Shown: positions 2,399-58,469 of the stretch, piece after piece
Layout: each line of letters starts with the position of its first letter
How positions within the stretch are numbered: position 1 is the first letter of the stretch
DNA from: Verrucomicrobiia bacterium
Lineage (GTDB): Bacteria; Verrucomicrobiota; Verrucomicrobiia; Opitutales; Cerasicoccaceae
Assembly: GCA_030432235.1 (NCBI GenBank)
Contig: JAUIHT010000007.1
Span: forward strand, 186,001-250,000
Direction: 5' to 3'
Length of the DNA: 64,000 nucleotides
Program-made: the position numbers and the translations under genes
Notes under the pieces: generated by a model
Told to the model about the DNA's origin: nothing
What the model saw: the letters and a program-made list of their open reading frames with translations, nothing else
The model's database searches: none

Positions 2399-2426
2399 CG
2401 AGAAAATAGAGATAAATTGCCCGTCA

Positions 2427-5400
2427 TCAGAAAGGCTGCCCTTCCGATGGGCTTTGGATGGATACATTAAGTTGATTCAAAGAATCTTGGATTGCCGGGA
2501 AGTCTGAATCCTTTTCGACGCTTCCAAGGGTCTTCTTATATTCCCAGGCGTCAACTAGTCCGTCGGAATCATTGTCATACTCGGGCACAGCAGGACTTCG
2601 ATTCAATGGATTCCAGTCCAATAGGTATTCTTGGAGATTTGTCAGACCATCATCGTCAGGATCCGCATCGTTTTCATGGCCAGTATCTCCGAAATGAAAT
2701 CGCTCCCATGAGTCAGGGATAGAATTACCATCCTCGTACTGAACTGAAAGTTCCCTTTCAAATAACCATTCTCTGTCGCTAGAACGATTAAACCATCTTT
2801 GCGGCGCTTTCGTAGAAGACTCATAAAAATACCAAGTCTTAGTAGCAAAATGATAGAACCATGTATGGCCTGTATCTGCTCTAAAATCTGTGTTATTAAG
2901 CCATATCCAACCGATTTCAGCATCCCAAACCCACACATTCGTGGGAGAAGTGCCTTGAATCCAGGCCCACTCATTGGTCAACCCATGAAATACCCACCGA
3001 AATGGAGCCAAATCGTCAATTGTCGTGATCCGTTCATAGTCAACAAAGTACTCACCAAACCAATCTGAAAGCTTATAGACATTTCCGCCGTCTCCATTAG
3101 GCACGCGTACGGATACATTTTGCAGCGCATCCTCCTCCGCGGAAATATAATCCTCTGAAGACAAATTCTGAACAATCATCTGATCAGATGAGACAAACGC
3201 AATCGTCTCAGTTTCAGAGCTGAAGCTAGTACTATCAATAGTTGAGGATTGCTGACTGGCGAGTAATGAAGATTGCGAATTATCGCCCTCGCCGTTGACC
3301 TCGTCACTAGGCGCCTCTGGTGGAATGCTAAATTTATCCAAAGGATTTGAACCAGATTTGTACTCCTGAATATTAGTAAAAGAATCACCATCGGGATCAT
3401 CATATGTCCCGTATTGTGTAATTTTTTCAAAATACGTAATTTCCCAGGCATCCTTTAATTCGTCGTTATCACCATCAGCGGTATTTGGCTTAAGATTATT
3501 GTTATACTCGAATAGGTTAGAAAGACCATCGGAATCAAAATCACCCGTAGCGCCATTCTTAACATCAATGGTGCCATCATCAATGGGACTTAGGCCCCAA
3601 GTCACTTCCCAACCATCAGGAAGACCGTCATCATCTGTATCATCATCGTTAGGATTCGTTCGATTAGTATACTCACCCAGATTGTTTAGCCCGTCAGTGT
3701 CAGGATCGGCTGTGGCGCTTGTTTCGAAGTAGCTCATTTCCCACCAGTCAGGAAGGCCATCACCATCAGTATCAGTATTTTCTACGGGACTCGTTCCATT
3801 GGCATATTCGTCAATATTGGGGATGCCATTTGAATTGGGGTCTCCATCTGCCCCATTAGGATCGATAGTGCTCGAGGGATTTAATCCATAGAAAACCTCC
3901 CATTTATCTGGCAGACCATCCCCATCACTATCCTGACTCCTGGGGTGAGTTCCAAGAGCATATTCGCGCGAATTCCGCAGTGTATCAGAGTCCGGATCCC
4001 CATTAGGGCCGTTTACTTTACTAACACTTCCGTCATCCAAGGGGTTTAGGGAATAGGCAACCTCCCAGTCATCGGGCAATCCGTCATCATCTGTATCAGA
4101 ATCGTTAGGATCGGTACCAGCCGACTGTTCGTCGATATTTGTGAGACCATCACTATCAGGATTCCCAGCCGCACCGTTAATAATGTTTGTCGAACCATCA
4201 TCATTTGGGTCAAATCCATGAAGAATTTCCCAGCCATCCAATAAACTATCGCTATCGCTATCCGCAATAAGAGGATGAGTCGAATAGCTCTGCTCTTCAG
4301 AATTTGATAGTCCATCTGCATCGGGATCGCCGAGCGCACCATCTGCCTGTATTATTGCACCATCATCATTCGGATTCAGACCAAATTGCACCTCCCAACC
4401 GTCCAGTAACCCGTCACCGTCTGTATCGTTACTTAATGGATTAGTGCCATATTCATATTCCTCAAGGTTCGTAAATGGATTACTTACAAAACCATCGGAA
4501 TCACCATCCAAGACAGGAATTGTTACACCAAGAGCTTCCAACCAATTGGGCAAACCATCAAAGTCATCATCAATGAATTCGTCGGCACCGATATCAATGT
4601 CGTCAGTACCAACAGCACGCCACTCTCCATTGGCATCAAAGGCTGAGACTCGTTCAGGTAGCGCTGGAAGTATAATGAAATCAATCGCTTCAGAATCAAT
4701 CACCAAATGACCTCCATAGCCTAGCACTGGGTTCTCGTGAGAAATATTGGCACCTACAAGAACAGCATCTTCTATATCATTTCTTACAATTGATTCTGTA
4801 ATAAATATATTCCCACTAGCTCCCCCAGTCTCTGAAACACCAGTATCATTCCAAATAATGCTGGAGTAGAACGAAGCACTAGAGAACTCTGAAACGGATA
4901 TGGCTGCCCCACCCGAATTTGCGTAATTCGAGAATATCGTAACGCTTGTAAAAACAGGGCTTCCCGACTCAACATATACTCCACCGCCTTCATTATTAGC
5001 AAAATTCGCAGTAATAATGCTACCAAGTACTCTAGGGCTCGCGTCTAAAGGCGAATTGATAAACAAACCGCCCCCATTATTCTCAATCCGGGCATTTTTA
5101 ATTGTGAATCCGTCTAGAACACTTTCACTATAAAGAGTAACGACAGATTCTCCCAATAGCGCACCCGATAAAATCGTTTCCCGAGCCCCGGAGGCAGAAA
5201 GTAGCAATAGCGACTTTTCGTTACTGACAACAATCGCTTCATTGTACTCACCGGCTTTTATCTCAATGATATCAAAAGCAGCGGCGGCATCGATCGCCTC
5301 CTGAATATCATTTCGCTGATAAGACTCCAAACTCACAAACCCAGCGTCTACTTGAAAGTAATGATAGTCGCCCATTTGATTTATCGTATACCCTGGCCAC

Positions 5401-8400
5401 TGCTGGCTATCATTGGCGTCTGTCTGATGAAAGAATTCAAAAACATTTGGAAACCTATCCAGGTCCAAATCATCATAAGCATCATCAGAACGTGGATCCA
5501 AAGTAGCAGATACTTCCCAACCGTCTGTCATCAAGTCACCATCCGTGTCCGGATTAAGCAGATCGGTAGATTCCGGACTATGATAAACCTCGGCCCCATC
5601 TAGGTAATCATCGTCATCAGTATCCGAATCCCTAGGGTCTCCACCATAAGTGTATTCTCCCAAATTAGCTAAAGAGTCTGCATCTGGGTCTCCTGTCGCT
5701 CCATTGATGACATTTACTGTACCATCATCCAAAGGATCCAAGCTATTATAGTACTCCCATCCATCCGGTAATCCATCCTCATCGGTATCATCCACGCGAG
5801 GTAATGTTCCAATGGTGTACTCAATCAGGTTCCCGATGCCGTCTAAATCTGGATCGCCTAGCGGGCCGTTGAGCACAAACAAAACGCCAGAATCTAAAGG
5901 ATCCAGATTATGCGCATTTTCCCAGTTGTCAGGTAATCCATCACCATCGGTATCTGCGACTGAAGGGTCCGTCCCTGCGTTGTATTCATCAATGTTATCT
6001 ATGGTATCACTATCATTGTCTTGATTCGGTTCAGTGACGCCAGCGGCTTCAAGCCAATCAGGAAGGCCATCTGAATCACTATCCTTGAATTCATCAGCAC
6101 CACGATCAATGAAATCGGCCGTTAAATCGCGCTGCTCTAAATCCGCATCAATTTTCGAATATGATATCGTAGAATCAACATCTAGGGCCGGTGAGCTTGA
6201 AACGATGTGACCCAATAACCCCAATTGCGGGTTGGTATGCGTTACCTGAGTCAGAACAGCATCACCTGTAGCTGCACGAATAACCGAAGCGTCAATGGAC
6301 ACCTTAATACTTTCACCCCCAATTTCATCGAACGACGAAGGATTCCAGAAAATTGAACGTTCAATGCTGGTGTTTCCTGCTTCGAGTGCCTGGTAGAGGC
6401 CAGAGCCGACTCCTTGGTCCACATGATTGCGATAGACGGTGCTATGGACAAATATTGGGCTACCCAAATTTACCGCAACACCCCCACCATCTGAGGATGA
6501 ACGATTGTTATAGATAATCAGATTCGCAAACTTGGGAGTTTTATCGTTCGAGGGGCGAAGCGTTGCTTCTCCAGCAATAATAGTCGGTAAATCGTCGGGT
6601 TGAACAGATATAAGTAAACCAGCCCCAGGACCCTCCGTTACACCATGAGTCAGTGTGAACCCGTCCACGACGCTCTCAGATTGAACTGTAAGAACAGATT
6701 GAGCCTGACCAGTAGCATCAATGATCGTGCTCCTTGAGCCATCTAAAGAAAGTAGCAAAAGTGGTCTATTGGCAGGCAGACTGATGGCCTCAGAATATGT
6801 GCCAGTCCTCACAAGAATAATGTCATGCCCAGAAGCACTGCTAATAGCAGATAGAAGTGTCTTCTTTCCGTAATCAGATTCTGTAGTAAACCCAGCATCT
6901 ACCTCAAAAACATAGCTCGGTCCGCTTTGGGTTTCAGAATAGCTCGGATAAGAACTAGCCAGCGTGGGATCTGTTCCATGAAAATATTCAAATACGCTAG
7001 GAAATCTATCAAAATCTATGTCATCCAACCCATCAGAGCCATCAAGTGGATCTAGATTATAGGATACTTCCCAGCCATCTGGCATCATATCACCGTCTGT
7101 GTCTTTAATCAGTAATTCGGTTCCCTCTAAAATTTCACTAGTATCTGTCAGTCCATCTTGGTCACTATCATCCAACAATGGATTAATTTCGGACTGATAT
7201 TCCATGATGTTAGACAAAGAATCTGAATCATAGTCTCCAGTTGTGTCCACAACCCCCAGAGCCTCTATCCAATCAGGAAGTCCATCGCTATCGGTATCAG
7301 TATATTCGTCCGCACCTGTATCAACGGCCTCTACAGTAGCATCGCGCCACTCTCCATCTGAATCAAATTTTGAGTAGCGTACCGGCAAAGTCGGTAAGGT
7401 TATAAAATCAATTGCAGGAGAATTTGAATTCAGGTGACTCGCGAACGCCAATAAGGGATTCAAACTGGACGAGTCCTCTAAAACAGAGTCTCCATAGTCG
7501 TTGCGAACAATCGATTCCTTGAAAAAGACAGCTGAGGTCTGTCCACTGACTTCAGAAATGCTAGATTCATTCCAAAGAATCGAGCTGAAAAATGAAGCCG
7601 ATGCATTCTCGGAAACGGCCAATCCGCTGCCTTCTTGCACAGCAAAATTACGGTTGATGGTAACACTGGTAAAAAGAGGATTACCCGATGCCACATAAAC
7701 ACCGCCACCAGTGGAGCCTGCAATATTTTGCGTAATGACACAACCAAGGAGGCGCGGAGAGGAGGTGTCAGGCGCCTCAATTCTTATCCCGGCACCACTA
7801 TCTGCAACACGACCACCAGTGATAGTAAAACCATCCATAGTACTACTACTCCGTAGAAGCACTGCTGTCTGCTCTAAATCCTGGGCATTAATTATAGTCT
7901 GCCGCGCACCAGACTCCGAAATCAATAAAATTGGCTTATCAACAGGAACTTCCAAGGCTTCCATATACTCGCCTGCAAGAACGTATATAATGTCATGTTC
8001 AGTCGCTGCATCGATCGCCGTCTGAATTTGTTTCTTTTCGAAGTCAGCCTCTACAGTTAGGTCATCGTCGACTTTATATATATTATGACTGCCAGTTTGA
8101 GACACCGCATATATCGGGAAGTCATTAAAGTTGTTAGCGTCAGTATTGTGGAAATACTCGAAAACATTAGGATAACGATCCAAGTCAAGGTCATCCAAGG
8201 CATCATCCACTAGCGGATCCAAAGTCATTGTGATCTCCCAACCATCCCACATCAAATCACCATCCGTATCAGGGTTCCTTAAATCAGTCGAAGATGGTGA
8301 ATGGAAAACTTCGAGACCATCTTCATAGCCGTCATCGTCAGTATCTGGATCGTGAGGCAATCCTCCGTGAACGTATTCACCTAAATTTGAAAGCCCATCT

Positions 8401-10121
8401 TCATCTGGATCACCTAAAGCACCATTTTCTATATTAACAGAACCATCATCTAAATGGTCCAAGCTATTTTCAATTTCCCACTGATCAGGCAAGCCATCCC
8501 CATCGGTATCGATGAATTCATCAACTCCGACATCTACAGCATCAATGCTGGCGTCCCGTGACTCATAATCAAAGTCAAAGATTGAATAGATGGAATCAGA
8601 ACCAGCGTTTACGGCTACAGAGCTAGTAGTTAAGCGACCTCCATAAGCCAAGGCAGGATCACCTGTCAAAATTTCCGAATCCCCCTCGTCTCCAAGTATT
8701 TCAGTCCTGATAATAGAACTATAAATATTAAGGAAGCGAAGTTCACCGGAAAACTCCGAGTACGCGTCTCCATTCCAAAAAATGCAATTACTTATAGTGA
8801 TATTATCAATATCAATTCCGATGCCGAGGCCTGCTCCTCCCAATATTGAACGATTTTGAATAACAGTCAGGCTACTTAGAGTTAAATCACCACTCTTAGC
8901 ATAAATGGCACCACCAATGCCATTTGCATCGTTATTAATGATGAGGCATGCAGAAATCGTGGCATATTCCTGATGTGCATCTATAAAAAAACCAGCTCCA
9001 TTACCCGAAACATATCCATTCTTTACAGTAAAACCAGAAACAAAACTACCACTTAATATACTTACAACAGGGTTATCACTACCGCTTCCTTCGATTATAG
9101 TTTGATAAGCTCCACCGCTCGAAGCCAAAACAATAGATTTTCCGGCCTCTATTAAAACTGGGCCAGAATAAAGACCAGGCTTTACGTAAATAACATCCCA
9201 GGACTGCGCAACAAGCAAAGCTGCTTGAATGGTTATCTTCTCGTACGAAGATTCACTGCTAAGGCTAGCATCAACAATAAATATATTAGGACTCCCGGAC
9301 TGGCTTGCGGAGAAAGTAGGCATTGAGTCGGGATTATCGGCTTCTGAGTTGTGATAGTACTCAAAGATGTTTGGGATGTTGTCATGATCAACATCCTCAT
9401 ACCCGTCATCACGAATAGGGTCTGTCGCATTCGATACCTCCCAGCCATCCGGCATCACGTCCCCGTCGGTATCATTTGACCGTGGTGATGTGCTATTAGT
9501 AAATTCGCCCAAGTTATTGAGTATATCGTTATCCGGGTCGCCACTTGCTCCATTGATCACATTGATTGAACCATTATCCAAAGGATCTAGTTCATATAAA
9601 ACCTCCCAACCATCAGGCAATCCATCCTCGTCAGTATCGCGCTGAATCGGGCTTGTGGAATGAATATATTCAGTAAGATTCGTTATTCCATCAACATCGG
9701 GATCGCCATAGGCTCCTTGGTTAATATCCGTAGCACCATTATCTAATGGATTAAGCCCATAGAGCACTTCCCAGCCATCAGGAAGTCCATCATCGTCTGT
9801 ATCCGCATCGTTTGGGTCTGTATCATACGTGTATTCCTGAAAATTACTCAATCCATCCGAATCACGATCATAAGCTGCCCCATTTTCTCCTGTTGCATCC
9901 AAAGGGTCCATTTCATTTGAAATTTCCCAGACATCCGACATCCCATCTCCATCACTATCTACAACAATGTAAACAGGGCCTCCCTCAGGAACTGAAATTA
10001 ATGGCGGGTTAAGAGGCGGATTATTAAGCTGTGCCGCACAAGGAATAAGAAGTGCGAAGCCGAAAGCGAATAATAATAATTTGCCCTCATTACGCTGTAA
10101 AAGCATAGCTTTTTTCTTCAT
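2427..10121 (-). CDS. Giant exported TSP3 / parallel beta-helix protein (2564 aa)
   Basis: The N-terminal basic and hydrophobic segment, ending in Ala-Gln, is a probable signal peptide. The body alternates thrombospondin type 3 calcium-binding repeats (D-x-D-x-DGLPDxWE pattern, dozens of copies) with four long modules near residues 265-537, 668-944, 1057-1354 and 1577-1854. Each module starts with a (S/T)QxG...VDA segment and continues as a pectate-lyase-like right-handed beta-helix. A TSP3-only stretch follows to about residue 2255. A Trp-rich domain lies near residues 2350-2460 (motif EIGWIWLNN), followed by two more TSP3 repeats. The likely role is a rigid calcium-dependent surface or secreted protein; no catalytic motif was recognised. 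It follows the HEAT gene by 9 bp. The start has no obvious Shine-Dalgarno, which suggests coupling to the upstream gene. Confidence 0.85.
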   Translation of the reverse strand: MKKKAMLLQRNEGKLLLFAFGFALLIPCAAQLNNPPLNPPLISVPEGGPVYIVVDSDGDGMSDVWEISNEMDPLDATGENGAAYDRDSDGLSNFQEYTYDTDPNDADTDDDGLPDGWEVLYGLNPLDNGATDINQGAYGDPDVDGITNLTEYIHSTSPIQRDTDEDGLPDGWEVLYELDPLDNGSINVINGASGDPDNDILNNLGEFTNSTSPRSNDTDGDVMPDGWEVSNATDPIRDDGYEDVDHDNIPNIFEYYHNSEADNPDSMPTFSASQSGSPNIFIVDASLSSESSYEKITIQAALLVAQSWDVIYVKPGLYSGPVLIEAGKSIVLASSGGAYQTIIEGSGSDNPVVSILSGSFVSGFTVKNGYVSGNGAGFFIDAHQEYATISACLIINNDANGIGGAIYAKSGDLTLSSLTVIQNRSILGGAGLGIGIDIDNITISNCIFWNGDAYSEFSGELRFLNIYSSIIRTEILGDEGDSEILTGDPALAYGGRLTTSSVAVNAGSDSIYSIFDFDYESRDASIDAVDVGVDEFIDTDGDGLPDQWEIENSLDHLDDGSVNIENGALGDPDEDGLSNLGEYVHGGLPHDPDTDDDGYEDGLEVFHSPSSTDLRNPDTDGDLMWDGWEITMTLDPLVDDALDDLDLDRYPNVFEYFHNTDANNFNDFPIYAVSQTGSHNIYKVDDDLTVEADFEKKQIQTAIDAATEHDIIYVLAGEYMEALEVPVDKPILLISESGARQTIINAQDLEQTAVLLRSSSTMDGFTITGGRVADSGAGIRIEAPDTSSPRLLGCVITQNIAGSTGGGVYVASGNPLFTSVTINRNFAVQEGSGLAVSENASASFFSSILWNESSISEVSGQTSAVFFKESIVRNDYGDSVLEDSSSLNPLLAFASHLNSNSPAIDFITLPTLPVRYSKFDSDGEWRDATVEAVDTGADEYTDTDSDGLPDWIEALGVVDTTGDYDSDSLSNIMEYQSEINPLLDDSDQDGLTDTSEILEGTELLIKDTDGDMMPDGWEVSYNLDPLDGSDGLDDIDFDRFPSVFEYFHGTDPTLASSYPSYSETQSGPSYVFEVDAGFTTESDYGKKTLLSAISSASGHDIILVRTGTYSEAISLPANRPLLLLSLDGSRSTIIDATGQAQSVLTVQSESVVDGFTLTHGVTEGPGAGLLISVQPDDLPTIIAGEATLRPSNDKTPKFANLIIYNNRSSSDGGGVAVNLGSPIFVHSTVYRNHVDQGVGSGLYQALEAGNTSIERSIFWNPSSFDEIGGESIKVSIDASVIRAATGDAVLTQVTHTNPQLGLLGHIVSSSPALDVDSTISYSKIDADLEQRDLTADFIDRGADEFKDSDSDGLPDWLEAAGVTEPNQDNDSDTIDNIDEYNAGTDPSVADTDGDGLPDNWENAHNLDPLDSGVLFVLNGPLGDPDLDGIGNLIEYTIGTLPRVDDTDEDGLPDGWEYYNSLDPLDDGTVNVINGATGDPDADSLANLGEYTYGGDPRDSDTDDDDYLDGAEVYHSPESTDLLNPDTDGDLMTDGWEVSATLDPRSDDAYDDLDLDRFPNVFEFFHQTDANDSQQWPGYTINQMGDYHYFQVDAGFVSLESYQRNDIQEAIDAAAAFDIIEIKAGEYNEAIVVSNEKSLLLLSASGARETILSGALLGESVVTLYSESVLDGFTIKNARIENNGGGLFINSPLDASPRVLGSIITANFANNEGGGVYVESGSPVFTSVTIFSNYANSGGAAISVSEFSSASFYSSIIWNDTGVSETGGASGNIFITESIVRNDIEDAVLVGANISHENPVLGYGGHLVIDSEAIDFIILPALPERVSAFDANGEWRAVGTDDIDIGADEFIDDDFDGLPNWLEALGVTIPVLDGDSDGFVSNPFTNLEEYEYGTNPLSNDTDGDGLLDGWEVQFGLNPNDDGAIIQADGALGDPDADGLSNSEEQSYSTHPLIADSDSDSLLDGWEILHGFDPNDDGSTNIINGAAGNPDSDGLTNIDEQSAGTDPNDSDTDDDGLPDDWEVAYSLNPLDDGSVSKVNGPNGDPDSDTLRNSREYALGTHPRSQDSDGDGLPDKWEVFYGLNPSSTIDPNGADGDPNSNGIPNIDEYANGTSPVENTDTDGDGLPDWWEMSYFETSATADPDTDGLNNLGEYTNRTNPNDDDTDDDGLPDGWEVTWGLSPIDDGTIDVKNGATGDFDSDGLSNLFEYNNNLKPNTADGDNDELKDAWEITYFEKITQYGTYDDPDGDSFTNIQEYKSGSNPLDKFSIPPEAPSDEVNGEGDNSQSSLLASQQSSTIDSTSFSSETETIAFVSSDQMIVQNLSSEDYISAEEDALQNVSVRVPNGDGGNVYKLSDWFGEYFVDYERITTIDDLAPFRWVFHGLTNEWAWIQGTSPTNVWVWDAEIGWIWLNNTDFRADTGHTWFYHFATKTWYFYESSTKAPQRWFNRSSDREWLFERELSVQYEDGNSIPDSWERFHFGDTGHENDADPDDDGLTNLQEYLLDWNPLNRSPAVPEYDNDSDGLVDAWEYKKTLGSVEKDSDFPAIQDSLNQLNVSIQSPSEGQPF
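4550..9330 (-). repeat. Four beta-helix module repeats inside the giant gene
   Basis: Four diverged copies of a roughly 270-300-codon module lie at about 8510-9325, 7290-8117, 6060-6950 and 4560-5390. Each opens with an ASQSG/VSQTG/ETQSG/INQMG-type segment, has a shared GEY/GTY/GLY turn, a DGFT or SGFT core strand, and closes with a V(D)xGxDEF/Y sequence running into a TSP3 repeat. The copies differ at many positions, so this is an old protein-level duplication and not a recent DNA repeat. Confidence 0.75.
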
Positions 10122-10130
10122 GATATATGA

Positions 10131-11165
10131 CTAGAAAATTTCCCTATTTTTTTTCAACCGCTCAAAAATCTTGTCATGGGCTACTTGAGCAGCATGAGAA
10201 AACGGAGTAATCTGAAGCTCCTCAATCCGGTCGACAGTCCTTAAAGCTTCGAATCCACCTAAATCACCCAACGCGGCAATGGCAGACATACGCTCTATCG
10301 TATCGTCAGAGTTTATCGCAATCTCTTCAATAGAGGCCACCGTACTTTGATCACTGACACCTAAACGAACCAAGGTCTGAATTGCTGACGACCGAACATA
10401 AGGCGATTCATGTTTCAAAGAAAGATTTCTAGCGATGCCAGAAACATTAATCTCTTCCTGCAGTTCAGGATACTCCTCTACCAAAATGCCCAACCCAAGT
10501 ATCGCTGTTCCTTGTAAATCTGGATCTTTGAGAGCCTTAGTAAGGGCATTAAGATTATCAGCCAGAAAGGCGCTATCTTTGATAGACCGCTCGACAAATA
10601 AAATATGAAACTGAATAGCGTACTCCCTTGAAGCCTTGCTCAAGCTCCTATTGGACCACATTGAAGTGAGTTCAGAAAAAATAACCCCAGGGGTACGCCT
10701 CTGATTAATTAATTTATTCAAAACTTCGTTTTTCAACGAATCCCATTGCATCTCTGTAACACCTAAGCCCATACGGTATGGTAGCTTGAGGAGGTCGAGT
10801 AGCATAACCAACTCCTCTGTACCTAACTCATTGCCAAGCGACCTAATTGCACTGATTTTCTGCTCATATACTCGAACCTGTTCGGTTGTTGGCGTAACCC
10901 TTTTATCTTTATCACTATAACCTGAAGCGGACTTTTCAGCATTGCTGAGCTCATACTGAGTATCTTCTTTCGAGATGTTACCCAATATACCCGAATCAAA
11001 CGCTTGAGCCTCGCGCCCTAGAATAGGGGGTTGCATGAAGGGAATCTTTTCGGACGAATCGCGCTCAAGCCAAAGAAGCGTACCAATGCAAAAAAAAAGT
11101 ATAATAAGCACAACAGACAGTATCAGCCTGATATAGATATGGTACTTACATCTTATGTTACTCAT
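10131..11165 (-). CDS. Membrane-anchored HEAT-repeat protein
   Basis: This 344-aa protein starts with a short basic segment and one hydrophobic helix at about residues 9-33, so it is probably anchored in the inner membrane with the bulk outside the cytoplasm. Residues of about 190-330 form HEAT/armadillo-like helical repeats (SSAIQTLVRLG, MSAIAALGDLGG). A GGGGAGG-type Shine-Dalgarno lies 5 bases before the ATG and just after the stop of the 2600-aa gene. HEAT repeats generally act as protein-protein scaffolds. Its position between two giant exported proteins suggests a role in their export, assembly or anchoring, which is inference. Identity beyond the fold is not recognised. Confidence 0.75.
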   Translation of the reverse strand: MSNIRCKYHIYIRLILSVVLIILFFCIGTLLWLERDSSEKIPFMQPPILGREAQAFDSGILGNISKEDTQYELSNAEKSASGYSDKDKRVTPTTEQVRVYEQKISAIRSLGNELGTEELVMLLDLLKLPYRMGLGVTEMQWDSLKNEVLNKLINQRRTPGVIFSELTSMWSNRSLSKASREYAIQFHILFVERSIKDSAFLADNLNALTKALKDPDLQGTAILGLGILVEEYPELQEEINVSGIARNLSLKHESPYVRSSAIQTLVRLGVSDQSTVASIEEIAINSDDTIERMSAIAALGDLGGFEALRTVDRIEELQITPFSHAAQVAHDKIFERLKKNREIF

Positions 11166-11180
11166 TAAAGCCTCCCCTGT

Positions 11181-17100: not shown

Positions 17101-18983
17101 GCTTTATCATGCCCGCCTAGTCGTCGGTGAACTAATATTATGGTAAAATCATCCGCCCCTGCGTCAAACGCAGCATCGCCTTCAAGAAAATCATCTACAC
17201 CGTCAAAGCGAACAGCTGACTTGCCGCCAATCGCATCGGTAACGAATTCCGGTCGGACCGTTATAGTGGACTGCGCCAAGTCGGTTCCATAGGAAACACG
17301 GTTTCTCCAGCTTTCAACTCCATCAGAACCGTCCAGTACGATTCCGGAGTCAGCAATTAACCAAATATACAGAGTGGCAGACGAACCGTCCGACAGCCCG
17401 TCTCCATCCGTATCCCATAGATTCGGGTCGGTCTCCGTTGCGTCAACGATACCATTGCCGTTAATATCTTCTTCAGAATTGGAGAGGCCGTCTCCGTCAT
17501 TATCCAAATTATCAGGCTCACTATAACCGATGCTTACCTGGTCCAAATATGAAATAGCACTCCTTTCTTCCAAAAATCCGAAAGAAGTAAAATAAGGCAC
17601 CGGGTTTGCAAAACCAAAGTCATTCGCGACTTTAACTCCATTCAAGTATAGTGACCAAACCTGCCTCGCATAATCCAATTCTACCGTGATACGTTGCCAA
17701 GTATCATCCACAGCTTTATGCTCAAGCATTTGCCACTCCCCCAGCGGTAAAGCACTACCATCAAAGGCGTTCAGTTGGCCATCCTCATCAAAATAGAAAC
17801 CCGCCGATGTACTACTCTTCAGTGCAGGCACCCCTCTTAGGGCACCAGTCACAATTCGAAAATCTACCCAAACAACCTGTTGTGCTTCAGCGCTAAAAAG
17901 ATTGTAAAGCTGCACGGGCCCAGTACCACCAGCGATTTTAGCAGAGAAATTCCCAGAATACACCTCATCAATAGTGATTACCGGCTCTATATCACCGCTA
18001 TATTGCCAGCCACTTGACGAAGTTATACCTTGTTGGCTGTGGTTTTCGAAGTCATCAAAAAAAGGCAAAGAGCCAAGATCATACTCATCATGGCTCAAAG
18101 GATCGGCACCCGATGCGAGTTCCCACCCATCAGGCACGCCATCATCATCAGAATCAGGATCTCCTGCATGTAAGTCCCTCAGAAATTCTTGAATATTGAC
18201 CACGCCGTCGAAATCAGAATCAAGATCACGGTCATCGGCATATAGGTCGAGACCATTAGCTGTCTCATAGGCATCACTCATGCCATCACTATCACTATCC
18301 AAAAAGACCGGATTCTCATAACCTGCATAGAAAAAATCAAAGTAGACAGGCGCCAAACCACCTCCTTTGAGACGGAACTGAGTAAAGGCATCCAGCAAAT
18401 CATCCAGGAATCGCAAGTCCGTGGCCACCAATTTATTGTCTAGGTAAAGGTCCCAGGTCTTCGTAGTGTAATTGAGGCGGTAAGTGAACCGCACCCAGCT
18501 GGTAGAAACCCCATCAGCAGTCAGCGAAAACTCGTGTGGGACCCGTTGCCACTGACCGCTCCCTTGCCCATCTCCATGTACCACGTAAAGCCAGCCTGTG
18601 CCCTCATCATCAACCAGGCCCGACATGGCCGAGGTAACGTCACTGGCGGAGAGCGGTAAAGATTCAAAAGGGCCAGCGACAGGCTTGAGGTAGAAATCCA
18701 CAAAAGTGACCGCACTCACTGTGCTCCCAGGAAAACTTGCCGTCAGAAAACCACTGGAGCCGAGAGGAAACTCAACGCCTTGGGCATCTGAGGCAAAGTC
18801 CGCTAAGGTCACCAAAGCCCCTGAATTGCCGACAATCCAAGGCGACTGTCCGGGAGCAACCCCATCATTATAACCGTCGACTACCTCAAAGTCCGTCTCG
18901 TACGGAAGACTAATTTGTCCGACTAATTGTCCAGAAAAGAGGGCTAGCGAAAGCCCGAGGCAGGCTGCGCTAACGCGGTTCAT
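11181..18983 (-). CDS. Giant exported LamG / TSP3 protein (2600 aa)
   Basis: A signal peptide is visible at residues 1-23 (MNRVSAACLGLSLALFSGQL). TSP3 repeats separate several jelly-roll domains. Three related LamG-type domains sit at roughly residues 544-768, 831-1068 and 1124-1354, each with an FDGVDD(Y/F)L or FDGTDDYL strand. Three other ConA-like modules of the FEVxxGY or FEN type lie near the N-terminus, near residue 300 and near residue 1400. A further LamG with WHHVAVTYND lies near residues 1794-1991, and a carbohydrate-binding-like segment near 2118-2248. The last 250 residues are not recognised. LamG and CBM-like folds bind glycans or proteins, so an adhesin or matrix protein is likely; no enzyme motif was found. 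The start codon lies in the loop of a perfect stem-loop at 18971-19004. Confidence 0.85.
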   Translation of the reverse strand: MNRVSAACLGLSLALFSGQLVGQISLPYETDFEVVDGYNDGVAPGQSPWIVGNSGALVTLADFASDAQGVEFPLGSSGFLTASFPGSTVSAVTFVDFYLKPVAGPFESLPLSASDVTSAMSGLVDDEGTGWLYVVHGDGQGSGQWQRVPHEFSLTADGVSTSWVRFTYRLNYTTKTWDLYLDNKLVATDLRFLDDLLDAFTQFRLKGGGLAPVYFDFFYAGYENPVFLDSDSDGMSDAYETANGLDLYADDRDLDSDFDGVVNIQEFLRDLHAGDPDSDDDGVPDGWELASGADPLSHDEYDLGSLPFFDDFENHSQQGITSSSGWQYSGDIEPVITIDEVYSGNFSAKIAGGTGPVQLYNLFSAEAQQVVWVDFRIVTGALRGVPALKSSTSAGFYFDEDGQLNAFDGSALPLGEWQMLEHKAVDDTWQRITVELDYARQVWSLYLNGVKVANDFGFANPVPYFTSFGFLEERSAISYLDQVSIGYSEPDNLDNDGDGLSNSEEDINGNGIVDATETDPNLWDTDGDGLSDGSSATLYIWLIADSGIVLDGSDGVESWRNRVSYGTDLAQSTITVRPEFVTDAIGGKSAVRFDGVDDFLEGDAAFDAGADDFTIILVHRRLGGHDKAAPVSFSVLPGTTGSPLLRYGPEAGQFGINAVGAGTNGTYVDLGSEYENQIYISSVSRTGGVYGSGGSLRLRSLTNGETHIAEGVQDWISGSNTGLFLGKKAYGTTHYFGGDIAEVRVYKGSLEEDTIIQMERKLATEYGLSLDQDSDGLPDDWERSIFGSLDEDALGDPDEDGLNNWREYNLSTDASTFDGFNFIVKKPSLELWLDGAQGIETDSLDNVVSWFDSSGNGNTAIQYDDGRRPLAVPWGTSGQQIVRFDGVDDYLFGDSNFDPGTGDFTLIAVTAQRLENGLSATLSYSTSDDAIGSPLLRWNRPESGDFGINEVGASTSGAFVSLAEEQLNDLKIVSARRVGGIAQGLNGILKIRALGERYTLHSEAPQTWSSGFSEAYYVGRKKFSDADNNDYFAGDVVEIFAFSEALSDTELRELEEYLGNKYSINLDVDADGLPDEIERQYFTDLDQGADDDYDLDGLSNIRELNLGMDPSNRDELGPVLSEASLVAWFDAETGLERDEQDKIYQWEDKSGFVHRLRQDSTTARPALDESSLHLPSVFFDGTDDYLDGDLGFDPSLHDFTAFVVHQRHGGHDKAAVFSFNQGTNITGAPLLRWGPNANELGINNVGVNADGAYLTFDADYLNRFLVTSVSREGGSDGGLNGVIHIASEGYIGAFSNQVTQSWESGSSTILALGKKSSDSSHFLGGNIAELIVFSGSLSIESKSRIHRYLVQKYALSSDIDGDGLSNLEEDANGNSIVDIDETDPLNADTDGDGVVDGLEELFGLNPLVPDAQRRPDADSNGLIEWKVEFEVSEGYFVGDIDTQNGWLAESSATVTNLTAGSGEQSLSIAGEYALAFIYAGWFDVPNLWVSFQADLLPTEVPESITPQQPTSAVFALGANRKLVAWNNELGEWESDTYNTIEEGWQNYSINLNYSEKKWNLILNGKMVFWGLPFHNPDVPHFSRFLVKNLPDTKDESATYVDTLLVSNREPAGFDFDGDGMPNDFERLYEFLDELDPVDGDEDYDGDGLVNSLEYLNGTFIDVEDTDSDNLSDYFEVYYGLNPLDPSDVSLDSDGDGMPDWWELGNSLQRYVADADVDTDADGLSNVEEFFWQTDPNSIDTDIDGWSDAFEVTQNFDPNSADSRPRDNDLDGVSNNEESNAGTNINLSSSYLPSRIAQYVFNGSLIGEGGETPTVYKGYGFVSGFSNQGILLNENDELEFNSVASLSRLEGSLSFWYKPSWESGTVVTSKIWRSLFEIGNWKAKYTPAYLGLVVHRETKLLGIRQHDGSGGVTGGNINLHYTPIHWQANEWHHVAVTYNDDNLRLYLDGQLAFEIPRYAFTSLPNPMRFSNMGGVFDEFCVFNYVLDPEDIQLIYKTDSDLDGLPDVWEYNVFGDLSVTNDPMADADSDGLANQLESELGTNGLLADTDGDNLSDFDEWNNYHTNPLLGDTDGDGLDDALEIAMGSDPLSIDTDADAIDDFMEYFLGTDLLSENTVTNIVTLAGAAASETVGQWYRSGGYIATNEERGKLTYDFSVFESNIYRIEVKGWQNNQSVNSEHGDFSQIKEVELSVDDVLLSEFSVNQAYGNDEYGRGLTMWLEAGEHSLSLLFADIINAEPFFTVESIKVQKIDGPDTDSDGIADWVVNLLEATNYIFTSSMYSYVSPAFIEGKTRFRDLMPSLSVGIPRSAPDYCWYADVPLSATEGSTSLSASFENNGLIADIEIEWLPKNIFDEGDIFIRLGDTLRLKMEDASQLEGDSSIALDGNTSDLAAGEVLDVLFDTAGSYDVTGIQGETESTLTVHVIDYVFPATVVAAKTRRLRNNAIAILPSEVYPQFDEDLGAKEDGNHYDVTPSRALDFPVIARIGDSGAVASRMEIAAFDLTYSNESHLQILEVYPDGSQLVEGVMFQKNLADTVRIRLEIFVSGVVFEDGTTVKDVTLTDFDELGRYHYRFIRGAGVGASVCHRTKLYDGNTYLGAIGE

Positions 18984-25399: not shown

Positions 25400-26791
25400 T
25401 CAGGTGGACGCAACCGGCTGCCCGGTGGAAACGTTCCAGAGCGTGCCGGTGCTGGAGTCAAACCACAGCCAGGCTGCATCGTCGTTGCCGTAGAGAGAAG
25501 GATAAACACTCTGATTGGTCCAGAGCCAGCCGAGTTCCGTATGGTAGAACCACATGTTGGTCGTGGTAGTCAGGTAGGTCGCCATCCAGCCAAGTTCCAG
25601 ATGATACACCCAAGGTTGGGAGTCCACTTCGGAGTAAAACCAACCCAGCCAGGAGGAGTCATACCAGCTATTCGCGCTCAGCTCACCACCGAGCAGAACG
25701 GCCAAGGTATTGGGATCGGCCTCAGCGCCAAGGTAACGGTTAACATGGGATAAATTTTTATAGTACCAGTCACGAAACTCACGAAGTTCGGGACCACCCG
25801 GAATTTCGTTATCGTTGATATCTTTGCGGGCGTCGGAAGTACTATCGAGGATGAGGTAGACCTTCTCTCCCATCTCAGCGTAGTTGGACTGGCCGGTAGC
25901 GGTGAGCTTGGCAGTATCCACGCCACCGAGATCCCCCACCCACATAACTGTGTGCACCACTCCCGCGCCCGGATTTTCGATGTAAAGGAGGTCTCCCGTC
26001 TCCAAAAGAGCAGCGATATCCGGGATGGTTGCTCCCGGAGGAAATACTATTTTTTCGACCGGCAACTGTGGCGAACTAGCGCCGCCATAATAGTTAATCG
26101 ACGTCAACGCGCCTTGGTCGGCAACAGCAGAAGTGAACTGGAGACCGAGGCCGTAGTTATAACACCAGGAGGTGAAGTTGCTGCAGTCCATGCCGTGTTT
26201 GGTCGCAGGTATTGGGTAGGCACCGTTGACTTCCAAAGCGGGCCAGTCCTGCTCCTTGGTGGGAGCGAAAGCCGGAATATGATGATGACGGTAATGGATT
26301 CCAAACTTGGAAGTGCCATCGTAAGGCAAATTCTCCATCACGTTTTGGTACCGTAAAGCGGTAGCCAAAACACGTTCACGCTGCCATTGTAATGGCATAG
26401 ACTCGTAATCGTTGTTGGGGAATTGAGCGGCAGGCGGGCCGTATACCTGAAGCAAACGATCGATCTGACCGGTTTCCAAATCACGGTAGCTGTTCTTCAC
26501 ATACCATTCGCCGAAGTCCTTGCTGGACTCTCCGGCTACGCTGTTGCGCGGAGAGACATCAAAGTCCTGATGGAGACTTTCCAGAGAATAGGTAAAGTTA
26601 ACCTGATAAGGAGAGCTGTATTCGGCGGGGTCCGCGGTAGCCTGGGCAACCCCCGATTCGCCACCAGTACCGGCACTCTTTTCAGATTCTGTAATGGCAT
26701 CCTGCGCCTGTGCGCTCAGCGATATGATAGCGCCGACATGAAACAAGACGATGCGCCGTAAGCTACGGAAACCAGTCATAAGGTATTTCAT
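25400..26791 (-). CDS. Exported NlpC/P60-like cysteine peptidase with Trp-rich C-terminal domain
   Basis: This 463-aa protein has a signal peptide (hydrophobic segment ending ISLSAQAQDA). The central domain carries GMDCSNFTSWCYNYG (candidate nucleophile Cys near residue 201) and GDLLYIENPGAGVVHTVMWV (candidate His near 280), the order and spacing of NlpC/P60 or CHAP-type peptidases that cut peptidoglycan peptides. The last 85 residues are a Trp/Tyr-rich domain with two LGW repeats (LELGWMATY, TELGWLWTN), shared with the cyclophilin, the sulfatase and the giant TSP3 protein in this window. A cell-wall hydrolase tethered or targeted by the Trp-rich domain is the best guess. Base composition is lower in GC than in the flanking cmk-plsC and purK genes. 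Confidence 0.75.
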   Translation of the reverse strand: MKYLMTGFRSLRRIVLFHVGAIISLSAQAQDAITESEKSAGTGGESGVAQATADPAEYSSPYQVNFTYSLESLHQDFDVSPRNSVAGESSKDFGEWYVKNSYRDLETGQIDRLLQVYGPPAAQFPNNDYESMPLQWQRERVLATALRYQNVMENLPYDGTSKFGIHYRHHHIPAFAPTKEQDWPALEVNGAYPIPATKHGMDCSNFTSWCYNYGLGLQFTSAVADQGALTSINYYGGASSPQLPVEKIVFPPGATIPDIAALLETGDLLYIENPGAGVVHTVMWVGDLGGVDTAKLTATGQSNYAEMGEKVYLILDSTSDARKDINDNEIPGGPELREFRDWYYKNLSHVNRYLGAEADPNTLAVLLGGELSANSWYDSSWLGWFYSEVDSQPWVYHLELGWMATYLTTTTNMWFYHTELGWLWTNQSVYPSLYGNDDAAWLWFDSSTGTLWNVSTGQPVAST

Positions 26792-26827
26792 TTACATCAC
26801 TAAGAGCAATACGTGACCAGTGTATTC

Positions 26828-27973
26828 CTATTTCGTGGCGGAAATTTCACCAAAAAGACGGTCCGCCACCGTCACGGCCTCGTCAATCGTCGGTCGCAAA
26901 ACGGTGAAGTGGCCCATCTTACGGCCCGGGCGCGGCTCGCCCTTGTCGTAGAGGTGCAGGTGGACGCCCGGGTCGGCCAGCAACGCGGACCAGTCCGGCG
27001 CGGCACCGTCTTGCCAGACGTCCCCGAGGAGGTTGACCATGACGCTGGGCGAAAGCGCGGCGGTGTCCCCCAGAGGCAGCCCGCAGACGGCGCGGATGTG
27101 TTGCTCGAACTGGCTCGTGGCCGCCCCGTCGAGGCTCCAGTGGCCGCTGTTGTGGGGGCGCGGCGCCAGTTCGTTGACCAGTACTGTGCCGTCGTTTTTG
27201 ACAAAGAGCTCCACCGCCAGCAGACCGACGCAGTCGATGGCTTCGGCCACGGCCACGGCCAGCTCGCGGGCATCCTGTTGCACTTTCTCCGGAAGCCGGG
27301 CGGGCACAATGCTCTGGTGCAGAATGTGGTTGCGGTGGATGTTCTCAGCTACCGGATAGACCGCGTGCGCCCCCTGGCCGTTGCGTGCCACGATGACGGA
27401 GCACTCCGCCTGGAAGTCCACCCAGGCCTCCACCACGGCGTGGCTGTAGCCGAGCCCGCGCCAGACGGCGGCGTAGTCGATGTCGGGGGTATCGATTTTC
27501 ATCTGACCCTTGCCATCGTAGCCGAAGTCGGCGGTCTTGAGCACGCAGGGAGTTCCGAGGGCGGCCACCGCCTCCTTCAAATCAACGTAGTCACGCACCA
27601 CGCGGAAGTCCGCACAGGGGAAGCCGTTTTCGCGCAGAAACTCCTTTTCTCGGCGACGATTCTGGCAGATACGCAAGACCTCCGGCCCGGGTCTCACGGG
27701 CGTGTGGGCGGATAGCACGCAGGCCGAGTCGTAGGGGATGTTTTCAAATTCCAGAGTGGACACCGCAACGCCTTTCCCGAACGCCTGCAGAGCGGGCGCG
27801 TTCTCGTAGGCAGCGGTACTGACGGCGTCCGCCACCATGCCCGCGGCCGTATCCGCGGAAGGCTCGTAGACGTGAAAACGGTACCCCAGATGACGCCCGG
27901 CCAGGATGCTCATTCGGCCCAGCTGGCCGCCGCCCAACATGCCGAGTGTCGCTCCGGGTAAAATGCAATCCAT
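26828..27973 (-). CDS. purK: 5-(carboxyamino)imidazole ribonucleotide synthase
   Basis: This ATP-grasp enzyme of about 381 aa begins with the characteristic LGMLGGGQLGRM. It contains VLKTADFGYDGKGQ for ATP binding and VNELAPRPHNSGHWSLDGA near the active site. It converts aminoimidazole ribonucleotide, bicarbonate and ATP into N5-CAIR in purine synthesis. The ATG at 27973 is chosen because the family starts just before the GGGQLG loop; the open frame extends 29 codons further upstream. No purE is adjacent. The cyclophilin gene is divergent, 124 bp away. Confidence 0.93.
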   Translation of the reverse strand: MDCILPGATLGMLGGGQLGRMSILAGRHLGYRFHVYEPSADTAAGMVADAVSTAAYENAPALQAFGKGVAVSTLEFENIPYDSACVLSAHTPVRPGPEVLRICQNRRREKEFLRENGFPCADFRVVRDYVDLKEAVAALGTPCVLKTADFGYDGKGQMKIDTPDIDYAAVWRGLGYSHAVVEAWVDFQAECSVIVARNGQGAHAVYPVAENIHRNHILHQSIVPARLPEKVQQDARELAVAVAEAIDCVGLLAVELFVKNDGTVLVNELAPRPHNSGHWSLDGAATSQFEQHIRAVCGLPLGDTAALSPSVMVNLLGDVWQDGAAPDWSALLADPGVHLHLYDKGEPRPGRKMGHFTVLRPTIDEAVTVADRLFGEISATK

Positions 27974-28097
27974 GGGCGGTAAGATCGCGTTGCCAGTCCT
28001 TCTTTGGCAATTCAAAAGCGGATCCGATGCGCCGGGAAAAGGAATAATCCCCCTTGCCATGCCTCTATGCTTGCAGCATAGTAAAATCCGGAAACAT

Positions 28098-29429
28098 ATG
28101 ACTCGTATCTACTTTCTTCTCCTTGGCGCATTCGCCACCCTTAATTTATCTGCCCTGACACCCCTGCAATGGGTCGAAATCCCCGCTGTTGAAGTGGCGG
28201 CGGACAGTTCTACCAGTGTCGACCTCGACGAGTCCCTGGAGTTTTACGATCCGGACGCTCCCCGGGTACTGGTCGAGACCACCCAGGGCAATATCCGGCT
28301 GCAGCTCCGCCCCGACCTGGCCCCCAACACCGTGGCGAACTTCCTCAACTACGTGGAGGACGGCGACTATACCGACGGCATCGTTCACCGTAGCGTACCC
28401 AACTTCGTCATCCAGACCGGCGGATTCTTCATTCAGCAGGATGAGAATAGCACGACGGTCGAGTCTGTTCCGGCGGACGCCCCGGTGGTCAATGAATTCA
28501 ACGTTTCCAACACGCGTGGCACCATTGCCATGGCCAAGACTCCGAACAAACCGGACAGCGCCACCAACCAATGGTTCATCAATCTCAAGGACAACGGCCC
28601 CACCCTGGATGGCCAAAACGGCGGGTTCACCGTCTTCGGCGAAGTCAACGAAGACGACATGGACGTGGCCGATGCCATCGCTGCCCTGCCCCGGTATAAC
28701 CTGAGCAGTCTGGGCACCTCCTTCAACGAAGTGCCGCTGGCCGACTACACCGATGGCGAGGTGCTGGTCTCCAACCTCGTCCTCACGCCCTCGGTCCGCA
28801 TCCTCGCGGATGACGCCGCAGACTTCCCGGTGGCCAACCTGCCCGCCCTGACCGTGGTGGAAACTTCCAACAGCGCTATCCTGGGCGCCAGCATCGACGG
28901 TCGCTCACTCGTCCTGACTCCCACCGGAAGCGGCACCGGTGACGTCACCGTGACCGTGCGCGCCGCCGGCGACGACGTCACAGTCGAAACCAGCTTTGTC
29001 GTCACTGTCACCGAAGCAGGAACGGAACCCGAGCCAGAACCAGAACCGGAACCGGAACCCGAGCCGGAGCCGGAACCTGAGCCCGAACCTGAGCCGGAGC
29101 CGGAAAGCGTCCTCACCGACGTCTTTTCGGGCGCCACGGAAAGCGGCGGGGGCTGGTGGTACACCGTCTGGTACGGGTTCGTCAACGGTGGCAACTGGCC
29201 CTGGATATTCAGCCTGGAGCACGGCTGGCAGTATGTCGAAGCCTCCGATGCCAACAGCATGTGGCTGTGGGATTCCTCTCCGGATCTCGGCTGGTTGTGG
29301 ACGGCAGAAGGCGTTTTCCCCTTCATGTACCATTCCGGCAGTGGCGAATTCATCATCTACGCATCTGAGCATCAGGAATTCGGATGGTATTATTTCCCCG
29401 GAGCCAATGCCTGGGAACAAATCAACTAA
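28098..29429 (+). CDS. Exported cyclophilin-type PPIase with Trp-rich C-terminal domain
   Basis: This 443-aa protein starts with a signal peptide (MTRIYFLLLGAFATLNLSA). A cyclophilin domain spans about residues 54-225. The active-site Arg, Phe and Gln are kept in HRSVPNFVIQTGGF, and the LDGQNGGFTVFGEV segment is present, so cis-trans prolyl isomerase activity is plausible. A beta-rich segment follows, then an (Glu-Pro)n linker at about residues 310-336, then a Trp-rich domain of about 100 residues (DLGWLWTAEG, FGWYYFPG). The linker probably projects the enzyme from the surface or spans the wall. A longer open frame starts upstream at 27906, but the ATG at 28098 gives the signal peptide. It may fold exported proteins in the periplasm or at the surface. 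Confidence 0.85.
   Translation: MTRIYFLLLGAFATLNLSALTPLQWVEIPAVEVAADSSTSVDLDESLEFYDPDAPRVLVETTQGNIRLQLRPDLAPNTVANFLNYVEDGDYTDGIVHRSVPNFVIQTGGFFIQQDENSTTVESVPADAPVVNEFNVSNTRGTIAMAKTPNKPDSATNQWFINLKDNGPTLDGQNGGFTVFGEVNEDDMDVADAIAALPRYNLSSLGTSFNEVPLADYTDGEVLVSNLVLTPSVRILADDAADFPVANLPALTVVETSNSAILGASIDGRSLVLTPTGSGTGDVTVTVRAAGDDVTVETSFVVTVTEAGTEPEPEPEPEPEPEPEPEPEPEPEPEPESVLTDVFSGATESGGGWWYTVWYGFVNGGNWPWIFSLEHGWQYVEASDANSMWLWDSSPDLGWLWTAEGVFPFMYHSGSGEFIIYASEHQEFGWYYFPGANAWEQIN
29024..29105 (+). repeat. Glu-Pro codon repeat in cyclophilin linker
   Basis: About 13 tandem GAR-CCN codon pairs encode an extended Glu-Pro linker between the enzyme part and the Trp-rich domain. Such tracts expand and contract by slippage, so linker length may vary among strains. 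Confidence 0.85.
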
Positions 29430-56855: not shown

Positions 56856-58469
56856 CTAAAAGTAAAGCCAGTCGCCACCGCGATAGAACCATTGGCTGCC
56901 CTGGTAATACCAACTCCAACCACCGACAGCGGCATAGAACCACGGCCAGTTGTCCCGCCCGGTCCACAACCATCCCAGGCCGGGATGCCAGGCCCAGAAG
57001 CCATCGGGCGTCGGCGCGTCCCCCGTGACCCAGAACCAACCCAGGCCCTCGGTGTAGCAAGCAGGCCAATTCTCAACGAACACGGAAGCGCCAAACCAGG
57101 ACTCGAAAAAGGTAGCGGTAGTGCCGTCGTAGCCATCGACCAGCAACGTGGTCGCTTCCTTGAGCGTGTAGTAGTTGGCCGCCTGGTCAGCGGTCAGCAG
57201 GCCGGGGAGCAGGCTGTCCTCCTCGTTCACGTCGTTGTTCAGATCGAAGAGCTGCTCGATGCCATTGGTGAATTGGATGAGCTTGTAGCGTCCGTTGCGC
57301 ATGGTGGTGCCAGTGGCGAAAGACAGGCTGCCGTCGTCGGTGAAGGACTCGGTATAGACCAAGGGGCGGTGAACCCGCTTGGTCGGATCGCTCAGGACCG
57401 GCATCAGGCTTACGGAGTCCAGCTCCACGCCCTCGAGGGCCTCTTCGGTGTCGATCTCGGCCAGCTCCAGAATGGTGAGAAACAGGTCGACCTCGTGGAC
57501 GAGGACCTCGCTGCGGCGCCCCGGCAGGGTCACACCCTTGCCGGCAATGATAAGAGGCACCTTCGTGCCGCCCTCATAGAGAGTGGCTTTGCCGTGGTTG
57601 ACCGTATAGGGAGGCTGGATGATATCGCCGGCGGTGCCGTTGTCCCCGATGAAAATGACGGTGGTGTTGGCCAAATCGATGGATTCCAAAAGGCGGCCAA
57701 TCTCGTAGTCCATCGATTCAGCCATGGCGCGGAAGTACACGTCGGAGCGGGCATCGACGTCCTCCTCGGTATCGGTCAAAGGCGGAGACACCGGCGTGTA
57801 GGTACCGTCAGGCGGAGCCTGATAGGGGTCGTGCGGCGCGTTGAAAGCAAGCCAGATGAACCACGGCTGGTCGTCCTCTAGGCTGTCGATGAAGTCGAGG
57901 GTATCGTCGACATTATCCTGGGTGGCGTAGACGGTGGAATCACCGACCACCTCGCCGTTGACCACCTTCTCCCAGTCGTAGTAGTCCTCCACATGCCCCT
58001 GGAGGCTGCCGGAAAAGTAGGGCCAGCCACCGAGGATGTTGGGGTCGTCGAGGCCGTCGCCCAAGTGCCATTTACCGATGTTGGCCAGGCCATAGCTGGA
58101 CGGGTATTCGCTGATGGCGTCAGCCAGGGTCACCTCTTCCTCGGAGAAGCTGCTCTCCTCGCCATCATCGACGGCAAAACCGACGCCGGTACGAAAACCG
58201 TATCGTCCGCTAAGCATGGCGGCGCGGGAAGGCGAGCAGGTCGGATAGGCATATGCCTGCTCGAAAACAACGCCCTGCGTGGCCAGACCCTCAACATGCG
58301 GCATGTTGGGAAACACCGCCTCGGGGTCGTCGTTGGTCAGGGCAAAGCTGTCCGAGCCCAGGTCGTCAGCAATGATGAGGAGGATGTTGCCGGGCTTGGC
58401 CTGTGCCGTGACCGCGAGCATGGCGCTCACGCCGGCTAAGATATACAACGAAAGGAATGAACGTTTCAT
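56856..58469 (-). CDS. Exported sulfatase with Trp-rich C-terminal domain
   Basis: This 537-aa protein has a signal peptide (ending AMLAVTAQAKPGN) and the alkaline phosphatase-type sulfatase core. Cys78 in PTCSPSRAAMLSGR is the residue that an anaerobic- or FGE-type enzyme converts to formylglycine; IADDLGSD binds calcium, and FIGDNGTAG, HGKATLYEGG belong to the active site. It removes sulfate from a polysaccharide or related ester. The last 85 residues are the Trp-rich domain (GLGWFWVTG, GLGWLWTGRDN, WYYQGSQWFY), so the enzyme is likely displayed on or bound to the cell surface. No sulfatase-maturating enzyme is nearby. Confidence 0.9.
   Translation of the reverse strand: MKRSFLSLYILAGVSAMLAVTAQAKPGNILLIIADDLGSDSFALTNDDPEAVFPNMPHVEGLATQGVVFEQAYAYPTCSPSRAAMLSGRYGFRTGVGFAVDDGEESSFSEEEVTLADAISEYPSSYGLANIGKWHLGDGLDDPNILGGWPYFSGSLQGHVEDYYDWEKVVNGEVVGDSTVYATQDNVDDTLDFIDSLEDDQPWFIWLAFNAPHDPYQAPPDGTYTPVSPPLTDTEEDVDARSDVYFRAMAESMDYEIGRLLESIDLANTTVIFIGDNGTAGDIIQPPYTVNHGKATLYEGGTKVPLIIAGKGVTLPGRRSEVLVHEVDLFLTILELAEIDTEEALEGVELDSVSLMPVLSDPTKRVHRPLVYTESFTDDGSLSFATGTTMRNGRYKLIQFTNGIEQLFDLNNDVNEEDSLLPGLLTADQAANYYTLKEATTLLVDGYDGTTATFFESWFGASVFVENWPACYTEGLGWFWVTGDAPTPDGFWAWHPGLGWLWTGRDNWPWFYAAVGGWSWYYQGSQWFYRGGDWLYF

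Follow-up and report, generated by a model that had tools for sequence, protein, structure and literature searches.

Why should one tryptophan-rich segment recur in exported proteins that are otherwise mostly unrelated, and what does it do for them? The question is raised by a stretch of 64,000 nt from a Verrucomicrobiia bacterium (Opitutales; Cerasicoccaceae; GCA_030432235.1, JAUIHT010000007.1:186,001-250,000, forward strand), hereafter the window, in which four genes encode such a segment. On the minus strand, an exported NlpC/P60-like cysteine peptidase or amidase (25400..26791; a weak Pfam match of 18.3 bits, under the cut-off of 23) carries it at the C-terminus (25403..25672; frame residues 376-453 by the profile match). 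The C-terminus is also its place in an exported cyclophilin-type peptidyl-prolyl isomerase on the plus strand (28098..29429; Pro_isomerase, 3.4e-32; domain at 29145..29426) and in an exported sulfatase on the minus strand (56856..58469; Pfam Sulfatase, 3.7e-39; domain at 56859..57110). The fourth copy (2766..3083, minus strand) lies inside a giant protein of 2564 aa whose translation contains many TSP3-like DxDxDGxxD repeats (2427..10121, minus strand). The open reading frame of the cyclophilin covers 27906-29429, and its likely start is the Met at 28098, from which a signal peptide is read. Its Trp-rich domain is preceded by a (Pro-Glu)n linker and then GGG; this linker is long (29040-29120), and another carrier in the genome has one of the same type (L089). 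A first-pass annotation of the window had placed the four segments here, three of them at the C-terminus and one near it, with 12-16 Trp each. Translations and profile matches bear out the positions, with 10, 4, 6 and 112 residues remaining downstream of the match in the NlpC/P60-like protein, the cyclophilin, the sulfatase and the giant protein, respectively. The Trp count comes close (11-13 per 76-104 residues, counted inside the profile bounds).

The resemblance between the segments goes beyond Trp content, as that annotation had supposed. Three pairs of window copies were compared by BLASTP, with E-values of 7e-7, 4e-10 and 7e-6, and a profile trained without the window copies recovered all four (1.2e-19, 1.1e-18, 1.7e-11 and 6e-10). 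When each of the 46 copies in the host genome was scored by a leave-one-out profile, every one outscored each of 200 versions in which its residues were shuffled (median 51.6 vs 5.3 bits). For the window copies, the scores were 70.4 bits against a shuffle maximum of 6.7 (NlpC/P60-like protein), 69.2 against 6.6 (cyclophilin), 48.1 against 0.5 (sulfatase) and 43.9 against 1.7 (giant TSP3 protein). Judged by their sequences, the four segments are homologous and represent one domain. A low-complexity artefact, in which alike composition would mimic homology, could appeal to a Trp content of about 11% in the domain vs 1.5% in the remainder of the carriers, but it is ruled out by the shuffle test and at odds with the invariant alignment columns, and we give it practically no credence.

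The domain is not confined to the window. A profile built from the four segments found 44 places with E < 0.003 in the host genome, and iteration on the fetched regions yielded 46 firm copies and one partial copy. The reuse of one domain by unrelated exported proteins, first proposed from four cases, thus extends to about 42 further copies in other parts of the host genome. An export signal was recognised in all 47 matches, in 44 of them by a simple heuristic and in three by reading the N-termini by eye; one of these three is a twin-arginine (Tat) signal. Most of the firm copies (35) are located at the extreme C-terminus (within 18 residues), while seven directly follow the signal peptide and four lie elsewhere. 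The N-terminal layout of one carrier is kept in another genus (51% over 230 aa). A stretch rich in Gly, Asn and Asp precedes the domain in 62 of 103 distinct copies, vs 14% at random positions.

Apart from the domain, most carriers are unrelated to one another: an all-against-all BLASTP gave few related pairs, which include both sulfatases and the BNR/Ycf48-type propellers. Among the carriers are enzymes (sulfatases, an S8 subtilase, a trypsin, a tyrosinase and a histidine phosphatase) as well as DM13, LRR and Ig proteins, PQQ and BNR propellers and pectate-lyase-like beta-helix proteins. One carrier is a phytase-like/5'-nucleotidase protein of the choice_anch_I family (514 bits; cut-off 300), an NCBI family whose name refers to variable anchors. 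About half of the carriers have no Pfam family at all. Two neighbouring carriers at one locus (L064:1352-2614 and 2424-4562, minus strand) have open frames that share about 190 bases; the frame of the sulfatase there extends 65 residues beyond the domain, possibly because of a frame error or a run-on.

The domain comprises about 85-95 residues. Its consensus begins with W-x-x-S-x-W-F-G-x-F-Y ... P-W-I-Y-H-x-x-L-G-W-L-Y-x-x-G, continues with W-x-Y-D-x-x-L-G-W-L-W-T ... Y-P-x-L-Y-S and ends with W-L-Y-Y ... R-x-F-Y-D-F, after which about 10 residues are left before the stop. In an alignment of 112 copies from the host and its relatives, which includes a few sites fetched twice, the most conserved columns are W45 (100%), W64 (98%), Gly8 (94%) and W17 (92%). 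Comparison of the profile with itself revealed an aromatic repeat of about 20 residues (score 22.6; the best of 300 column shuffles reached 14.5). An AlphaFold2 model of one relative, with ten other sequences aligned, contained only strands, spaced as five hairpins, with a mean pLDDT of 64.8; a second run reached 59.0, both with alignments of just 10-11 sequences. The first model gave no reliable structural match in Foldseek or VIA-align (E >= 1.4; Z <= 3.5). Since the models are too poor to name a fold from them, we infer an independently folding all-beta module, presumably consisting of four to five aromatic beta-hairpins.

The first-pass annotation gave no family name for the domain, and profile and library searches agree with this: Pfam, NCBIfam and PHROGs contained no convincing match for the domain, and Pfam gave only weak scattered matches for the 46 host copies. 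The OCRE domain (PF17780), known from eukaryotic RNA-processing proteins, likewise has aromatic repeats and was weakly matched by four of the 46 copies (best E 0.0034), but the consensus scored only 13.2 bits against a cut-off of 24.7. Sequence matches in the PDB to XepA (0.0013) and LytB (0.15) were judged to be composition-driven or analogous and were rejected. W_rich_C (PF07483), the Tryptophan-rich Synechocystis C-terminal domain, is also rich in Trp, takes its name from its C-terminal position and occurs on exported proteins, a subtilisin for example (PMC2605481). It had no match above the cut-off in the host genome, and none was listed for the 46 copies. A search of the open-access literature found no described family. 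Within the reach of these searches, neither the domain family nor its host group nor its probable partner glycan has been described, while terminal attachment modules as a kind are already known.

The copy number in Opitutales is bimodal: genomes usually have either none or one copy, or about 8-61. Among 36 related genomes, the host was counted with 42 copies, six others had 54, 45, 29, 21, 12 and 8, four had one each and the rest none. The domain was present in 88 of 373 genomes of an Opitutales sample in which the count per genome had an upper limit, and a collection scan with the consensus as query, which reaches the closest named relatives only, found 55, 60, 61 and 44 copies in Opitutales MAGs. 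It is rare in the rest of the phylum, with one copy in G203 (same class, other order), seven in G622 and one in G682. No relatives were found in plasmid or phage records by tblastn, nor in viral contigs by a pattern scan. Outside the phylum, the Candidatus Eremiobacterota MAG RYN_345 has 11 divergent copies. A divergent subfamily with the motif FGYYSYL..YIYHFDLGYEY..PRWFYNF, seen at L140 (Candidatus Eremiobacterota, JAQBPK010000164.1) and at L145:2266-3687, occurs in two adjacent Eremiobacterota genes, apparently for lipoproteins, and in one genome from a different order of the host's class.

In several respects the domain resembles the PEP-CTERM/exosortase system, which is present in the same genome and is also multi-copy, sporadic and mostly C-terminal on diverse exported proteins. 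For PEP-CTERM, it was the sporadic multi-copy distribution that suggested targeting by a dedicated system (Haft et al. 2006, PMC1569441), and by the same reasoning we read a sporadic multi-copy terminal domain as part of a system. The host encodes about 77-79 PEP-CTERM proteins at the Pfam cut-off, and a comparison by position found no Trp-rich carrier among them. Across 87 distinct C-terminal copies, the last 60 residues never include a 15-residue window with a hydrophobicity above 1.6, and the last 10 residues contain 0.7 basic residues. The domain therefore has no tail of the sortase or exosortase type and does not belong to PEP-CTERM, LPXTG or GlyGly-CTERM. Two genomes with 12 and 21 domain copies (G010 and G035) have no PEP-CTERM protein, and another two have two PEP-CTERM proteins each beside 8 and 29 domain copies. 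Conversely, eight genomes of the same family have 32-85 PEP-CTERM proteins and at most one domain copy, with none in six of them (G002, G003, G005, G006, G008 and G009). We rejected the domain as a PEP-CTERM/exosortase accessory, since the two are distributed independently across genomes.

A hint at the ligand comes from G622, in which all seven copies are C-terminal and located on two contigs (C45 and C20; L141-L143). They are 43-91% identical, and only one pair of their carriers is otherwise substantially related. The same two contigs encode an O-antigen ligase (Wzy_C), GT4 and GT2 glycosyltransferases, an ABC-2 transporter pair and a methyltransferase. Sharing contigs with genes for glycan synthesis and export suggests a link between the module and a secreted polysaccharide. 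The copies in the host genome are dispersed and not enriched near glycosyltransferase genes (three within 5 kb, 2.0 expected, P 0.32), and clustering with them was rejected there. At about 65 residues, the G622 copies are shorter and lack the last hairpin; they are remarkably alike in proteins that are otherwise unrelated, which looks like recent copying or homogenisation.

We favour the reading that the domain is a non-covalent retention module that binds a cell-surface or matrix glycan, with a probability of roughly one half. Export of the carriers from the cytoplasm would be by Sec, and for at least one of them by Tat. The module, which may be at the N- or the C-terminal end of the mature protein and in most cases follows the Gly/Asn/Asp-rich linker or is separated by it, would bind a polymer displayed or secreted by its own cell, most likely a surface or matrix polysaccharide whose sugars would stack on the faces of its Trp and Tyr residues. 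Unrelated enzymes, proteases, propellers and adhesin-like proteins could in this way stay attached to the cell surface or the matrix without a covalent bond, comparable to the retention by choline-binding modules in Gram-positive bacteria. We infer the glycan ligand, the non-covalent retention and the final location of the carriers from the export signals, the mostly unrelated carriers and the terminal positions, from the near-invariant aromatic residues, the repeat of about 20 residues and the absent membrane tail, and from the choice_anch_I carrier, the glycan loci of G622 and the bimodal multi-copy distribution. The common surface-anchoring, sorting or ligand-binding function proposed in the first-pass annotation fits a distribution that is typical of anchoring and targeting modules. 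Sorting has become the less likely part of it, since seven copies come immediately after the signal peptide and a hydrophobic or basic tail is absent, and anchoring by ligand binding is the part that we would retain.

The closest parallel is the choline-binding module of Streptococcus pneumoniae, which attaches proteins non-covalently to a surface polymer and whose repeat consists of a hairpin of about 14 residues and a linker of about 6, with ligands held between aromatic residues (PMC4471590). Like the choline-binding modules of LytA, LytB and CbpL, the Trp-rich domain is a terminal module common to many exported proteins and has aromatic repeats of about 20 residues, although its hairpins are low-confidence AlphaFold2 strands. 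It differs in its layout, a fixed array of four to five presumed hairpins in which each unit has motifs of its own, and in its hosts, which are Gram-negative PVC bacteria. To our knowledge, pneumococcal teichoic acids are not to be expected in these. No choline-binding family was listed for any of the 46 copies (Pfam, E <= 1), and hhalign of the domain profile against the LytB repeats gave a probability of only 40%. The choline-binding module is a beta-solenoid that binds choline between consecutive hairpins; the AlphaFold2 models of the Trp-rich domain, at pLDDT 59-65, are too poor for a comparison with that fold. Membership in the choline-binding family is thus not supported by the sequence comparisons, despite the similar repeat. 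This 40% comparison counts against retention by a glycan, as do the poor AlphaFold2 models and the lack of enrichment near glycosyltransferases in the host. In some genomes the only copy sits within a giant protein or at its end, which makes a dedicated ligand harder to argue.

The domain could instead be a secretion signal, that is, a folded domain recognised by an outer-membrane export system, either type II-like or new. The C-terminal domain of type IX secretion (PF18962) offers a precedent, being a folded beta domain of about 80 residues at the C-terminus of many carriers. The extreme C-terminal position of 35 of the 46 copies, the export of all carriers and the sporadic multi-copy distribution would all suit such a role. 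Unlike the type IX domain, however, the Trp-rich domain can also form the N-terminal part of a mature protein; the seven copies behind signal peptides, with a layout conserved between genera for one protein, argue against an obligately C-terminal signal, a few copies are internal, and the host genome has no match to Por_Secre_tail (PF18962). We consider a secretion signal unlikely.

An external ligand is also conceivable. Opitutales are polysaccharide degraders, the repeat is aromatic, and some carriers are sulfatases or pectate-lyase-like beta-helix proteins, as would be expected of a carbohydrate-binding module that steers enzymes to food polysaccharides. Yet many carriers do not act on carbohydrates (cyclophilin, trypsin, subtilase, tyrosinase, LRR proteins, propellers and Ig proteins). 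A ligand of the cell itself better fits one domain type on so many activities, and it seems improbable that the domain serves to find food.

The number of carriers per genome, the terminal position and the flexible linker (62 of 103 copies, against the 14% background) would also be in line with a role like that of dockerin and cohesin, in which protein-protein docking assembles the carriers on a surface layer or scaffold. In dockerins, calcium is bound by EF-hand-like loops; no such motif is apparent in the domain consensus, and searches short of a genome-wide profile scan identified no co-occurring partner domain. No conserved neighbour that might be a partner gene was seen in six low-copy neighbourhoods read by eye. 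Docking strikes us as distinctly improbable.

If the domain does retain its carriers on a glycan, a wider proposal can be made, which we regard as possible but somewhat short of even odds: Verrucomicrobiota may have an undescribed attachment system in which one aromatic hairpin module serves as a general handle for dozens of exported proteins per genome on a dedicated glycan made by the cell, parallel to and independent of PEP-CTERM/exosortase and with a divergent version in Eremiobacterota. This would be a second, exosortase-independent way to decorate a Gram-negative surface. The domain would then be a marker, readable from sequence alone, of 40-60 proteins per Opitutales cell that probably share one extracellular place, many of them without known function. 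With a profile of it, annotation pipelines could label several dozen proteins in each genome; in the host, about half of these have no Pfam family.

The giant TSP3 carrier of the window belongs to a row of four consecutive genes on the minus strand (2-18983). The other three encode a protein of 822 aa, cut by the window edge, a protein of 344 aa with a single N-terminal membrane span, and a LamG/TSP3 protein of 2600 aa. A similar gene trio with one internal domain is the sole site of the Trp-rich domain in genome G007 (L150).
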